From Candidatus Poribacteria bacterium (lineage in GTDB: Bacteria > Poribacteria > WGA-4E > WGA-3G): 64,000 nucleotides of DNA. Below the pieces are notes generated by a model that saw only the letters and a list, made by a program, of their open reading frames with translations, did not search any database and was not told the DNA's origin. Positions 32,833-39,899 of the stretch are shown here, piece by piece. The first letter of the stretch is position 1. The number at the start of each line of letters is the position of its first letter. Made by a program: the position numbers and the translations under genes. The stretch spans positions 2,376,856-2,440,855 of the forward strand of contig OY282374.1 in NCBI GenBank assembly GCA_958295815.1, read 5' to 3'.

Positions 32833-32898
32833 GTGTAGTTATCAGAAACCGATGGGTGGTCCTCGGCGTAAAACAGTCGTTTCCTATTTCAAAAAAAT

Positions 32899-32927
32899 TT
32901 GACATCTTCTATTTGATAGAGTATAAT
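32899..32927 (+). promoter_or_regulatory. consensus sigma-70 promoter of the his operon
   Basis: TTGACA (32899-32904), 17-bp spacer, TATAAT (32922-32927): both boxes and spacing match the consensus exactly. Transcription should start near 32934, leaving about 370 bases before hisZ, occupied by a leader peptide gene and attenuator structures. Confidence 0.85.
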
Positions 32928-32995
32928 ATCATTAAGTCCAATTCAAATCATTGACTTTTTAAAAGCAAGCTTCGTCTTGCAAGCGATACCTAAAA

Positions 32996-33049
32996 ATGCC
33001 TAACACTATTGCATATAGTATACATCACCATCATTCGGTCCACTGCTGA
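32996..33049 (+). CDS. hisL: his operon leader peptide
   Basis: 17 codons from ATG 32996 to TGA 33047, reading MPNTIAYSIHHHHSVHC. Four consecutive His codons (CAT CAC CAT CAT, 33023-33034) and a fifth near the end make it a histidine sensor: shortage of charged tRNA-His would stall a ribosome on them. It lies about 60 bases after the predicted transcription start, with a small hairpin (GCAAG/CTTGC, 32965-32980) before it. The RBS is weak; only a partial AAGCGA lies upstream. The stop falls within the antiterminator arm, as expected for attenuation. Too short to be found by length alone; the case rests on its codon content and position. Confidence 0.85.
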   Translation: MPNTIAYSIHHHHSVHC

Positions 33050-33144
33050 GTTGAGCGGATGAGGGAATATGTATAAACATCTTTAATACGAAACAAGTTT
33101 AGCTTGCCTATACCCCTAGTAAACAAACCGCTCTCTTAGTGCTG
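33041..33144 (+). promoter_or_regulatory. his attenuator: antiterminator hairpin
   Basis: CACTGCTGAGTTGAGCGG (33041-33058) pairs with CCGCTC...CTTAGTGCTGTG (33128-33144): six GC-rich pairs plus seven more (three of them G-U). Inside it, GGG(AA)TATG (33063-33071) pairs with TATACCC (33109-33115), taking bases needed by the terminator's 5' arm. The left arm covers the leader stop codon, so a ribosome finishing the peptide would block it. Confidence 0.7.
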
Positions 33145-33195
33145 TGTTACCCACGCGCTCAAGAAAAGGAGTTTCTGTTTACTGGGTTTTTTTTT
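33113..33195 (+). terminator. his attenuator: intrinsic terminator
   Basis: CCCCTAGTAAAC (33113-33124) pairs with GTTTACTGGG (33177-33186), ten pairs with one bulged T, followed at once by nine T (33187-33195). A second small stem (AGAAA/TTTCT, 33162-33176) stacks inside the loop. It lies 110 bp before hisZ and crosses the antiterminator in pairing, so the two should compete. Confidence 0.75.
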
Positions 33196-33304
33196 GACTT
33201 TTTAATCGCTGATGCGGCTTATAATCATAACCAACGTTGTCGAAACTTGACGAAATCTTTTTTTGATAACCGAAAAATGGAGCGAAAACGCAATCGTAAG
33301 AAAA

Positions 33305-34741
33305 ATGGAAAAATTTGATAAACCTACTGGAACAAGCGATTTTTTACCTGAACAGATGGTTCAGCGAAATTTCGTCGAAAATATAGTTCGTGAGACCTTT
33401 GAGACTTACGGATACGCGCAAGTTCAGACCCCGCTATTTGAGTCTTTCGCACTTTTATCTGCGCAATCTGGTGAGGAAATCCGACAGAAAATGTTTACAT
33501 TCGTCGGTTCTGATCGTGTAGACTACGCGTTGAGACCTGAAATGACTGCCCCTGTTTGTCGGCTCGTTGCTAACGGACAGCTCGGATACCGTCCCTATCC
33601 TTACAAACTCTACTACATCGGACAATGCGTCCGGCAGGAACCAACTGCAGACGGGGACGAAGTAAAAATGGAATTTCGACAGGCTGGTGTTGAACTCATT
33701 GGACCGGCTTCTGCACACGCCGACGCAGAAATCATCGCGATCCCTGTCCGTATCCTCGAAAAACTCAATATTTCACACACGAAGTTAAAAATCGGCAATA
33801 CGAGTATTTTCCGCGAGATTTTCAAACAGGTTTCACTGGATACAAAAGATCATGGTGAAATTATATGGGACATCGATTATCTTGCACGTCTGCGTGCTGA
33901 AGCTCAGGTTTGGGACCTGGAGACGTTCAGAGATGCCCTTAATATGTTACGCCGCTCACAAGGTGCCGATTATCAAGGTGATTATAAGATTGAATCCGCA
34001 GAGATTCAGGAATTAACTGACAGTAATATGTCTGCGTTCGCTGAGAAATTGCCAATAGTCGCTGAGGAGACCTATAAAACAAGATGGCAGCGCTATTTCG
34101 ATATTTCTGAGGAAACTGCCCAGTGTTGTATAGATGTCTCTAAAATTTCTGGGGACAGGGACACCGTTATGAAAGCTTGGGAGACGTATCTGGGTGGGAC
34201 GGCACAAGCAGCACGCCAAGAACTCCTCACGCTTTGTGATTACTTGGAAAACTACGACATTACAGACTTTGAAATCAATTTGGGAATTACACGCGGGTTT
34301 GATTTCTATACCGGCACGGTCTTTCAGATTGAGTTGCCTGAGAAACGCCGACCGCTCTGTGGGGGCGGAAGATACGACAAGCTAATTGAATCTTTTGGTG
34401 GCACACCGACCCCTGGCGCCGGGTTTGCGTTCCAATTTGATGCACTTGTAGAAGCGTTTACTGAAACAGCAAAAACAAATGTTAACGGGAAAAAAGACTA
34501 TTTCATCGCAGCAGAGACACCAGATATCCTTGCGGATGCACAACGACTTGCTGAAACCTTGCGGAGAAACGGTAAGAATGTGGAAGTAGATTTAATGGAA
34601 CGTGATCTACAAGCACAACAGGATTATGCTGACCAAACAAACTACAATTATCTGATACGATTAGTGTCTGATGAACCGATTTGTCGGATTCAAATGAAAA
34701 CTGGTGATACACAGGTAGTCACTGTTGCGGATCTCCTATAA
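33305..34741 (+). CDS. hisZ: HisZ-like regulatory subunit of ATP phosphoribosyltransferase (HisRS-like)
   Basis: 478 residues from ATG 33305; a TTG at 33263 is less likely. The class II synthetase fold is clear: GTSDFLPEQMVQR, ALRPEMTAPVCRLV and ITRGFDFYTGTVFQ. Where true HisRS reads GRYRQFxQ, this protein reads GDEVKMEFRQAGVELIG; the QAGVELIG end is typical of HisZ, and the ATP/His loop arginine pattern is gone. It is followed by a HisG without the ACT-like domain and by a genuine hisS. HisZ binds short HisG and gives histidine feedback inhibition of the first step of His synthesis. Unusual: it keeps a C-terminal anticodon-binding-like domain (KKDYFIAAETPD onward) that HisZ normally lacks. 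Confidence 0.8.
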   Translation: MEKFDKPTGTSDFLPEQMVQRNFVENIVRETFETYGYAQVQTPLFESFALLSAQSGEEIRQKMFTFVGSDRVDYALRPEMTAPVCRLVANGQLGYRPYPYKLYYIGQCVRQEPTADGDEVKMEFRQAGVELIGPASAHADAEIIAIPVRILEKLNISHTKLKIGNTSIFREIFKQVSLDTKDHGEIIWDIDYLARLRAEAQVWDLETFRDALNMLRRSQGADYQGDYKIESAEIQELTDSNMSAFAEKLPIVAEETYKTRWQRYFDISEETAQCCIDVSKISGDRDTVMKAWETYLGGTAQAARQELLTLCDYLENYDITDFEINLGITRGFDFYTGTVFQIELPEKRRPLCGGGRYDKLIESFGGTPTPGAGFAFQFDALVEAFTETAKTNVNGKKDYFIAAETPDILADAQRLAETLRRNGKNVEVDLMERDLQAQQDYADQTNYNYLIRLVSDEPICRIQMKTGDTQVVTVADLL

Positions 34742-34781: not shown

Positions 34782-35561
34782 ATGCAAACGGAATCACAAC
34801 GGACGCTGAAACTGCTTTTACCAAAAGGAAGTCTGCAGGGAGATACCCTTGAAATGTTTCAGCGTGCAGGGTATGAACCCAACGGTTACAATGAAACTGA
34901 CAGATCCTATCGTGCAACCTTCCGCGATGATAACGAATTTCAAATCAAGATTTCACGTCCACAAGAAATACCCGTCTACGTCGGCATGGATGACTTCTAC
35001 GATGTAGGAATTACCGGTCAGGATTGGGTTGAAGAGACTGACGCTGATGTCGAAGAAATCTTACCTTTGGAATATGGACACATTGACATTATTCTCGCTG
35101 TTCGAGAAGAACAAGATGACATCAATACATTTGAGGATTTAGTGAATCTCGCCGATAGAGACATTCGTATTTCCACCGAGTATTTGAACATCGCCGAGAA
35201 ATATATCCTTGAAAAAACGGAGAATAGAATCGCACCTGCGATTTTAACACCGTGGAAACGGCTTAATACGCGTGGCACTTACCATTCCCCTATCACGCTC
35301 ATGTTGTCTTTCGGAGCAACCGAGGGAAAACCGCCTGAAGAAGCCGATGCGATCATCGACAATTCTACGGCGTCTCGGCGTACAATCAAGGCAAATGCAC
35401 TCAAAGAAATTGAGCTTTTACGCGAATCTGAGTCCACGCTTATTGCTAATCCGAAGGCACTCACGGACTCGTGGAAGCGGGAAAAGATTGAAGAATTCAA
35501 GCAAAACCTACAGAAAGGTTTGCGGAGACGGCGGAGCCAGTCACTCCCCGGACACATTTAG
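34782..35561 (+). CDS. hisG: ATP phosphoribosyltransferase, HisZ-dependent form
   Basis: 259 residues from ATG 34782, with AAAAGGAG just ahead. It condenses ATP and PRPP, the committed step of histidine synthesis, in the cytoplasm. Family marks are LKLLLPKGSLQGDTLEMFQRAGY, VYVGMDDFYDVGITGQDWVEE and EADAIIDNSTASRRTIKANALKEI. The C-terminal ACT-like regulatory domain of long HisG is absent, so it should need HisZ, which is encoded 40 bp upstream. It is somewhat longer than typical short HisG (about 210-230) because of internal insertions and a basic tail. The downstream hisS starts 11 bp after its stop. Confidence 0.9.
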   Translation: MQTESQRTLKLLLPKGSLQGDTLEMFQRAGYEPNGYNETDRSYRATFRDDNEFQIKISRPQEIPVYVGMDDFYDVGITGQDWVEETDADVEEILPLEYGHIDIILAVREEQDDINTFEDLVNLADRDIRISTEYLNIAEKYILEKTENRIAPAILTPWKRLNTRGTYHSPITLMLSFGATEGKPPEEADAIIDNSTASRRTIKANALKEIELLRESESTLIANPKALTDSWKREKIEEFKQNLQKGLRRRRSQSLPGHI

Positions 35562-35572
35562 GAGTATAACCT

Positions 35573-36904
35573 ATGGCAAGCTCTTTTATTAAACCGCGAG
35601 TTCCGCGAGGGATGCGAGACATCCTACCTGAGCAGATGATTCGCAGGCAATATGTTATAGACGTTATTCGCGACGTTTTTGAAGAATTCGGCTTCGAGCC
35701 TCTGCAAACACCCGCGCTTGAATTGTCTGAAGTGCTCACCGGTAAATATGGACCTGACGCTGAGAAACTCATCTATCAGGCAGGTCATACAGGTGGAAAG
35801 GAGGACATCTCCCTCCGCTACGATCTTTCGGTGCCGCTCTGCCGGGTCGTTGCAATGTATCCACAACTACCCAAACCGTTTAAGAGATACCAGATTGATC
35901 CCGTCTGGCGAGCGGAACGTCCACAGAAGGGACGCTATCGTCAATTCTTCCAGTGTGATGCAGATACGGTAGGGAGCGACAGCATGCTCGCTGATGCTGA
36001 AAACGTTAATCTCATCTATCAGATACTCACTCGACTCGGTTTCAAACAATTCGAGATTAATATCAATGACCGAAAATTAATCACAGGTATTGGGCAATTC
36101 GCTGGTGTGCCTCATGAGCAACTTGGTGGACTCTATCGGTCTATTGACAAATTGGATAAAATTGGACTGGAAGGCGTCAGGACAGAATTAGTGGATAATC
36201 AGATCCCAGAACCCGTTATTGAGAAACTGCTTAACCTACTCCAGATTGAAGGTGATCCATCCATGGTTCTAAACGCACTCTCCGAACAACTCGGCGACTC
36301 TGAGGTGGCAAGAGAAGGGATCGCAGAATTGAAAGAACTGTGCGCCTATCTCACAACGCTTGGCGTACCCCATGAATTCTATAGAGTGAATGTTGCGATG
36401 GTGCGTGGTTTGGAATACTACACTGGACCTATCTATGAGACCGTTGTCGAAGAACCGAAAATCGGGAGCATTACCGGTGGTGGCAGATATGATGAACTCA
36501 TCGGTAGTTTCAGCAAACAGGGTCATCCGGCAACAGGCACCAGTTTTGGTATTGAACGCATTATTGACGTTATGGAAGAATTCGACATGTTTCCGCCAGC
36601 TGTAGGGAAAACGGTAACACAAGTGTTGGTGACTGTTTTCGATGCTGAACTTGCCCAAGAGTCGCTGAAATTGGCGACGCTTCTTCGTAGTAGTGGCATC
36701 CGTACAGAGGTCTATTGCCGTCCAGCGCGTCTGAGTGCACAGATAAAGTATGCGGATACCAAAGGGATCCCGTATGCTGTGATTCTCGGATCCGATGAGG
36801 TAGAAGCAGGTACGGTCGCAGTTCGGGATCTCGCGAGTAGAAATCAACAAGTTATCCCGCGTGGTAACCTTGTCGAACACATCCAAGAATTGGCGAGAAC
36901 CTAA
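35573..36904 (+). CDS. hisS: histidyl-tRNA synthetase
   Basis: 443 residues, RBS GGAG before ATG 35573. Charges tRNA-His. Motif 1 includes RGMRDILPEQMIRRQ; motif 2 is VWRAERPQKGRYRQFFQCDADTVG, intact; the histidine site VRGLEYYTGPIYE and motif 3 ITGGGRYDELIGSF/GTSFGIERI follow, then the anticodon-binding domain (VLVTVFDAELAQESLKLATLLR onward). SLRYDLSVPLCRVVA and QCDADTVG resemble the archaeal/eukaryal branch rather than the E. coli type. As third gene of the operon under the His leader peptide, it would be induced when charged tRNA-His falls, which makes physiological sense. Confidence 0.92.
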   Translation: MASSFIKPRVPRGMRDILPEQMIRRQYVIDVIRDVFEEFGFEPLQTPALELSEVLTGKYGPDAEKLIYQAGHTGGKEDISLRYDLSVPLCRVVAMYPQLPKPFKRYQIDPVWRAERPQKGRYRQFFQCDADTVGSDSMLADAENVNLIYQILTRLGFKQFEININDRKLITGIGQFAGVPHEQLGGLYRSIDKLDKIGLEGVRTELVDNQIPEPVIEKLLNLLQIEGDPSMVLNALSEQLGDSEVAREGIAELKELCAYLTTLGVPHEFYRVNVAMVRGLEYYTGPIYETVVEEPKIGSITGGGRYDELIGSFSKQGHPATGTSFGIERIIDVMEEFDMFPPAVGKTVTQVLVTVFDAELAQESLKLATLLRSSGIRTEVYCRPARLSAQIKYADTKGIPYAVILGSDEVEAGTVAVRDLASRNQQVIPRGNLVEHIQELART

Positions 36905-39131: not shown

Positions 39132-39899
39132 TTAAACAAATTTTGGTGTAATTTTTTCGTCTTCTGATTGAAAAGATTGTTCTGATTCGTCTTTCTGAAG
39201 GAGTCGTGCGACGTCATACCCTCTTCTGAGCAATTCGACTAAGAGCACGTCATCCGTGGCTCCATTTACCGAAGGTGACGTTTTCGTTGTTACGTCACCT
39301 TCGCTGTGTACCGACATCGCTTCCGATGCTTCCCGCACACTCGCGTAGTTGACGCCCAAGTACCGTTGCGTTGTAATCACGCTTTTATGCCCCAACATCT
39401 CTTGTACAGCGTAAATATCGTTCGTCTGCTCATAGAGGCGCTGCGCATAAGACTTCCGTAGAGAATGTGTCCCAAGCTTTCCATTCAGACCCGCAGCCTC
39501 AAACGCGTTCTTCAGCAAATCGTGCGCTGCCTTTCTGGTCATCATCTGCGAACCTTGTCCATTTCGTGACGGAAACAGTGGACGGGTGGGATCGATATTT
39601 CCATACAGCTCAACCTGCCAAGCGATAATATTATCAATCGCCTGCCTACCGTCCGCATTTACGGGTACGGCTCTTGATACCTCGCCGCCTTTCACGATAC
39701 TTAAATCAAATAGCAAGTCTTTGACAGGCTTGCCATTCTGCCATACATCGTTCACTCTCAGCGCGAGCAGTTCACTAATACGTCCACCGACGGACACGCC
39801 TAACATAAAGAGGCTCTGATTCCGAACGGCAAATACACCATTAAAGGCTCGCGATACTTTACGAATTTCAACATTATCTAAAGGTCTTGTACCTTTCAT
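39132..39899 (-). CDS. tyrosine recombinase, catalytic domain only
   Basis: 255 residues. The full catalytic set is present: Arg in GGRISELLALR, Lys in SIVKGGE, HSLRKSYA (HxxR), MLGHKS (His) and TTQRYLGV (nucleophile Tyr). The N-terminal SAM-like core-binding domain of integrases is missing; only about 20 residues precede the catalytic fold. An extra 60-residue tail follows the Tyr. It could be a stand-alone short recombinase or need a helper for DNA binding. No att-like direct repeats flanking a mobile unit are visible; neighbours are ordinary genes. A strong terminator follows it. Confidence 0.85.
   Translation of the reverse strand: MKGTRPLDNVEIRKVSRAFNGVFAVRNQSLFMLGVSVGGRISELLALRVNDVWQNGKPVKDLLFDLSIVKGGEVSRAVPVNADGRQAIDNIIAWQVELYGNIDPTRPLFPSRNGQGSQMMTRKAAHDLLKNAFEAAGLNGKLGTHSLRKSYAQRLYEQTNDIYAVQEMLGHKSVITTQRYLGVNYASVREASEAMSVHSEGDVTTKTSPSVNGATDDVLLVELLRRGYDVARLLQKDESEQSFQSEDEKITPKFV

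Follow-up and report, generated by a model that had tools for sequence, protein, structure and literature searches.

What governs the expression of the hisZ-hisG-hisS operon in Candidatus Poribacteria, and can the DNA preceding hisZ sense how much charged tRNA-His the cell holds? The locus was studied in a window of 64,000 nt (the whole stretch of DNA that was analysed), taken from a genome assembled as a single contig of 5.13 Mb. Judged from sequence and its comparison among relatives, the region ahead of hisZ is very probably a ribosome-mediated transcription attenuator that senses His-tRNA supply and controls HisZ, HisG, and HisS. The features on which the argument begins are as follows.

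32899..32927, + strand: sigma-70-type promoter of the leader transcript, 12 of 12 consensus positions
32965..32980, + strand: hairpin GCAAG-CTTGC upstream of the leader ATG, found in many copies of the genus and replaced in some
32996..33049, + strand: predicted leader peptide ORF, MPNTIAYSIHHHHSVHC, 17 codons and TGA
33023..33034, + strand: four contiguous His codons, CAT CAC CAT CAT (putative sensor; part of segment 1)
33305..34741, + strand: hisZ, ATP phosphoribosyltransferase regulatory subunit (HisS-like; PF13393, 1.6e-53), adjoining a short hisG
34782..35561, + strand: hisG, short-form ATP phosphoribosyltransferase (PF01634, 8e-31; TIGR00070 over its cut-off)
35573..36904, + strand: hisS, histidine--tRNA ligase (TIGR00442, 1.8e-118, over its cut-off)

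The operon, its promoter and the predicted leader peptide

The first gene is named hisZ because of its neighbourhood and the presence of a second, full hisS; its product scores 276 bits with the hisS model TIGR00442 and 232 bits with the hisZ model TIGR00443, both below cut-off. This HisZ is long (478 aa) and retains RGFDFYTG and GGGRYD stretches, which resemble HisRS motifs. No terminator-like site was found on the + strand between hisZ and hisS, and a single weak one lies inside hisS. The gene order is kept in 22 of 23 named relatives, the last of which has hisZ and hisG and no hisS within the DNA examined. Shared control of hisS, as the original prediction proposed, fits this conserved order. 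Further downstream, a frame on the - strand (39132-39899) resembles, by eye, a tyrosine recombinase/integrase.

The predicted consensus promoter, TTGACA-17-TATAAT, was confirmed: its -35 element (TTGACA, 32899-32904) and -10 element (TATAAT, 32922-32927), separated by 17 nt, form the sole 12/12 site between 28000 and 40000. A comparable promoter precedes 50 of the 51 aligned leaders that have enough upstream DNA. The sole exception, L099 (G075), has no TTGACx-TATAAT; its upstream DNA has been replaced by a different, hairpin-bearing sequence. The hairpins at 32965-32980 and 33094-33106 carry common CAAG...CTTG arms on both sides of the leader ORF and could alternatively pair with one another.

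The 17-codon peptide and its His codons, likewise foreseen, are strongly conserved. In each of the 54 uncut leaders, an ATG opens a frame that contains an unbroken series of three or more His codons (four in the genus and three in the sister genera), and His codons together with a stop are kept in every one of these copies. Within the three-codon run, changes are limited to CAT/CAC synonyms. The leader of the window has a fifth His codon at 33041-33043, and a further codon soon after the run encodes His in 51 of 54 leaders (CAC in 33, CAT in 18), the others having GAC, GAT, or TAT. A stop codon follows soon after the run in 53 of 54, that of L018 having been lost. The frame itself is also preserved: the ATG lies 27 nt upstream of the run in 35/35 genus rows, and a 3-nt deletion in three leaders leaves the frame intact. 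Among 19 sister-genus leaders, picked by their His run and not by an ATG, an open ATG occurs in the His frame in 19/19, compared with 10/19 and 3/19 in the other two frames.

The first nine codons show only a weak third-position excess (pairwise differences of 1050, 1225, and 1505). Such drift would be expected if the His codons and the frame alone matter; by itself, the pattern is no proof of leader translation. No Shine-Dalgarno sequence precedes the leader ATG, where the best core has 3 letters. Among the long ORFs of the window, 26 of 29 reach a core of 4 letters or more at an early start, a count inflated by taking the best of several starts and to be read against the 23% of random 15-mers that reach the same core.

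Alternative pairings of the leader RNA

The leader RNA contains three pairing segments and a predicted terminator.

33026..33037, + strand: segment 1, His codons pairing with segment 2 (33056-33065), from RNAalifold of 28 genus leaders
33053..33065, + strand: segment 2, GAGCGG and AUGAGGG, putative antiterminator 5' strand; GAGCGG/CCGCUC invariant in 28/28 genus rows
33094..33106, + strand: spacer hairpin CAAGU-UUA-GCUUG, all cells paired in the 18 rows having letters
33114..33133, + strand: segment 3, CCCUAGU and CCGCUC, putative antiterminator 3' strand, overlapping the terminator 5' arm
33115..33195, + strand: predicted terminator, 11-bp stem 33115-33125/33176-33186 and nine T at 33187-33195

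The terminator with nine T that had been placed within 33113-33195 is indeed found there. Its large loop (50 nt) contains a covarying apical hairpin (33139-33156), and its T run ends about 110 nt upstream of hisZ. The stem and T run are present in all 54 aligned rows; in the terminator and apical hairpin, 8 pairs show double changes, a number reached by 1 of 500 shuffles. The distance from T run to hisZ ranges from 22 to 539 nt in the 46 leaders where the T run was found, which fits termination rather than masking of the ribosome-binding site. Of 100 shuffles, 98 fold less well than the whole leader RNA (z -2.57), and the terminator half alone stands out less distinctly (z -1.77; 9 of 200 shuffles equally good); the main evidence against chance, and it is strong, is conservation in 55 of 84 genomes.

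For the antiterminator, the original prediction needed correction. It paired 33041-33058 with 33128-33144; the conserved core lies inside those arms and joins 33053-33058 (GAGCGG) with 33128-33133 (CCGCTC). The second helix proposed, at 33063-33071/33109-33115, lies close to the conserved one, which the genus alignment places at 33059-33065 with 33114-33120. The leader stop codon, thought to lie in the antiterminator arm, is outside the core: it occupies 33047-33049 and ends 3 nt before the conserved arm. The spacing is conserved as well, the stop codon starting 2-6 nt before the arm in 53 leaders (exactly 6 nt in 48/54) and the His run lying 27 nt from the G[A/G]GCGG arm in 46/54 and 24-26 nt in the other 8.

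Across the family, 317 of 318 cells of the core are paired. Since the core is nearly invariant, it shows 0 double changes and no covariation; support for the antiterminator is its conservation, together with most of CCGCUC being unpaired in the terminator state. The genus consensus fold contains the helix of His codons with segment 2, the spacer hairpin, and the terminator, and when the part before the stop is removed it switches to GAGCGGAU.A.GGG paired with CCC.U..GU...CCGCUC. Segment 1 and the antiterminator both use 33056-33065. Sister-genus leaders have GGGCGG-A-UUAG as segment 2, with CUAA-CCGCUC as its partner (98.4% of cells paired). Their His codons form a 13-bp helix in a different register (95.9% of cells paired), where a His CAU-to-CAC change is matched by A-to-G in the partner and a UA-to-CG change occurs elsewhere. 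The comparison of stems among relatives that had been suggested shows the terminator, the apical hairpin, and the helix between segments 1 and 2 retained with paired changes. The outcome that would have refuted the original prediction, relatives lacking these stems or the His codons, was not observed.

Taken together, the leader has a short ORF rich in codons for the operon's amino acid, a predicted intrinsic terminator between this ORF and the first gene, and an antiterminator exclusive both with the terminator (an overlap of one base in the sister genera) and with the His-codon helix. From these sequence features we infer leader translation and termination at the T run, and the following mechanism is proposed. 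RNA polymerase would start near 32934, and a ribosome would then translate the leader peptide. With ample charged tRNA-His, this ribosome would get to UGA and its footprint, reaching about 12 nt past the A site, would hide GAGCGG; with GAGCGG hidden, no antiterminator would form and transcription would stop at the T run. Untranslated RNA should terminate too, its segment 1 being paired with segment 2. If charged tRNA-His runs short, the ribosome would stall on the His codons and cover segment 1, and the freed GAGCGGAUGAGGG would pair with CCCUAGU...CCGCUC before the terminator 3' arm emerges, letting polymerase continue into hisZ-hisG-hisS. One signal would govern both the committed step of His synthesis (HisZ-HisG) and tRNA-His charging (HisS).

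This switch was examined in silico in 54 leaders, with the nascent RNA cut just 5' of the terminator 3' arm and a stalled ribosome represented by a mask that ends 18 nt from the first of the last three His codons. The mean antiterminator probability was 0.94 with the His codons masked versus 0.08 for naked RNA. Masking to 12 nt past the start of the stop codon, a footprint taken from PMC4833913, gave 0 for the antiterminator and 0.99 for the terminator. Shuffling segment 1 raised the naked antiterminator to 0.52 (higher in 51/54 leaders), and flipping the third bases of three His codons raised it to 0.38 (higher in 37/54). L096 did not switch in this fold test. For the full transcript at equilibrium with masked His codons, the terminator still had a mean probability of 0.73 (1.00 for the leader of the window), and masking lowered it by more than 0.1 in just 24/54 leaders. 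As the terminator mostly wins at equilibrium, the choice of read-through must be kinetic and made during transcription; known attenuators likewise decide during transcription.

Two other uses of these pairings were weighed, besides a riboswitch. The original prediction itself raised a pseudoknot, and a translated leader acting through one, with the pairing of segment 2 and CCGCUC coexisting with the terminator stem, is improbable without being negligible. The pairings do cross. Sister-genus leaders have just one base that belongs to both the antiterminator and the terminator stem, so that overlap does not disfavour the idea there; in the genus, however, 7 nt of the terminator 5' arm (33114-33120) are also used by the antiterminator, and 98.5% of the cells of this antiterminator-state structure are paired over 28 rows. 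Less likely still is a protein-binding leader in which HisS or HisZ would bind the RNA (e.g., as a tRNA-His mimic) and control termination, the His codons merely serving the helix. The extreme conservation of the His-codon helix within the genus and the inclusion of hisS in the operon would suit such a protein, but the register and partner of the helix differ across genera, and what persists is the stop and the His codons in their frame. Moreover, most variation in the last His codon falls on the third base (CAC in 33 and CAT in 18 of 54), and the two spacings, 27 nt and 6 nt, fit a ribosome.

The T-box sequence was not seen in the leader. A tRNA-His T-box riboswitch, with uncharged tRNA binding the leader, CAC/CAU as the specifier codon, and no ribosome, is the least credible reading: Firmicutes histidine genes carry His T-boxes according to PMC9413887, and the leader has conserved CAC/CAU plus a terminator, but no T-box was matched in Rfam at gathering score in the window or at 20 relatives' loci, none was among the matches up to E 10 in 32850-33350, and a T-box needs neither 3-4 consecutive His codons nor a conserved frame and stop. 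The preferred reading remains a ribosome-mediated attenuator.

Distribution among Poribacteria

A covariance model built from 28 genus copies and searched in 84 genomes of the phylum gave 56 matches in 55 genomes. The element was present in 35/38 genomes of the genus, in 20/20 of the family's other two sampled genera, and in 0/26 outside the family. Two of the 56 matches, in G067 (L091) and G029 (L026), were left out as cut by contig ends, and L110 was omitted as a duplicate of L007. G025 carries a second leader copy near a contig end (L106, G025:C200), possibly through contamination or strain mixture. Among the three genus genomes missed, G023 and G032 yielded hisB and no hisZ, hisG, or hisS; because hisS is essential, their his locus is probably absent from the assembly. 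In G024, the contig carries only the last 42 residues of hisZ, whose start is off the contig.

Outside the family, most genomes have a hisG open frame of about 290-340 residues, a length that fits the long form, and in 24 genomes no close hisZ was found, just hisS-like matches. Searching the 26 outside genomes with a broader model, R2, brought up nothing strong (best E 0.0073), and 20 of their hisS loci had no match to any Rfam family. No leader ORF with three consecutive His was found there in the upstream DNA examined at hisG (23 loci) or hisS (24 loci); the same scan, which also covered control loci of the family, showed a few ORFs with three scattered His.

No paralogous leader was found in the same genome as the window by the covariance model, whose 1 match is the known locus. 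The pattern CAYCAYCAY-N140-170-T7 also returned the known locus only (2 overlapping matches versus 1 in the reversed control). A variant with N120-150, a gap too short for the known locus, gave 10 matches versus 10 in the control; these 10 loci were rejected, their 8 frames (from 4/10 loci) being chance-like with GTG or TTG starts. The same scan for short ORFs with three consecutive His, run at 8 hisB loci, found none.

In G049 (family f4), R2 matched upstream of a prs-like gene (L193:1501-1639), where a leader-like ORF with two adjacent His (MTSIFHHSSLF, then a stop) occurs with nested complementary segments and a terminator, resembling a leader-peptide attenuator. The other prs loci examined had no such ORF with a T-run terminator (L213 left out of 29; L223, L224, L225, and L227 judged by eye), and the case was set aside as a single one from an assembly with 7% contamination.

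A wider and distinctly tentative reading, to be taken as a whole, is that this His attenuator evolved independently in one Poribacteria family, arising or being acquired with a hisZ-short hisG-hisS cluster that stands in for the longer hisG found elsewhere in the phylum. It would use a sensor ORF lacking a Shine-Dalgarno sequence, and the sister genera would rely on pseudoknot-like competition instead of plain exclusion between antiterminator and terminator.

Relation to known systems

Mechanisms of this kind are known; novelty, within the literature searched, seems to lie in the phylum, the operon, and the sequence family, and the Poribacteria papers found, judged by title and abstract opening, did not concern a His leader-peptide attenuator. 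If correct, the proposal extends amino-acid-specific leader-peptide attenuation, which requires tight coupling of transcription and translation, to an uncultured, little-studied phylum of sponge symbionts, and would place both tRNA-His charging and the committed step of His synthesis under a single signal. The diverged copies are numerous enough for comparative analysis, and annotators gain an RNA family missing from Rfam, no family of which matches the Poribacteria his leader. With His-specific T-boxes the leader shares its target genes and its input, tRNA-His charging; unlike them, it has no T-box match and conserves a predicted translated ORF instead.

Peptide attenuators were described in the original prediction as best known from Proteobacteria; this can be broadened, as hisZ leaders are reported in Firmicutes as well. 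Naville and Gautheret (2010; PMC2965389) describe His leader peptides in bacilli, upstream of hisZ and of a paralogue of hisS, and find no similarity even between Firmicutes and Proteobacteria leaders. PMC4833913 cites hisZ leaders for C. difficile and the B. cereus group, and PMC9413887 describes His attenuators of his operons in the B. cereus group, Eubacteriales, and Erysipelotrichales. Going by such descriptions and not by sequences, the Poribacteria leader is like the Bacillus hisZ/hisS* attenuators, for which ribosome-mediated attenuation was proposed, in having a short ORF with a His-codon run and a terminator before hisZ or a HisS-family gene; it differs in its phylum and in its operon, hisZ-hisG-hisS.

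The term "classical" in the original prediction holds for the probable mechanism and not for descent, as there is no recognisable kinship with the enteric leader: the Rfam His_leader family (RF00514) matched neither the window nor 20 relatives' loci at gathering score, and was absent up to E 10 in 32850-33350. As in the enteric his attenuator, His codons lie in a leader peptide, the stop precedes the antiterminator, and the terminator has a T run. Unlike the enteric his operon, the Poribacteria operon begins with hisZ, not hisG; the enteric leader has seven His codons and A-F helices, and the Poribacteria leader has 3-4 contiguous His codons plus one, and one antiterminator set.
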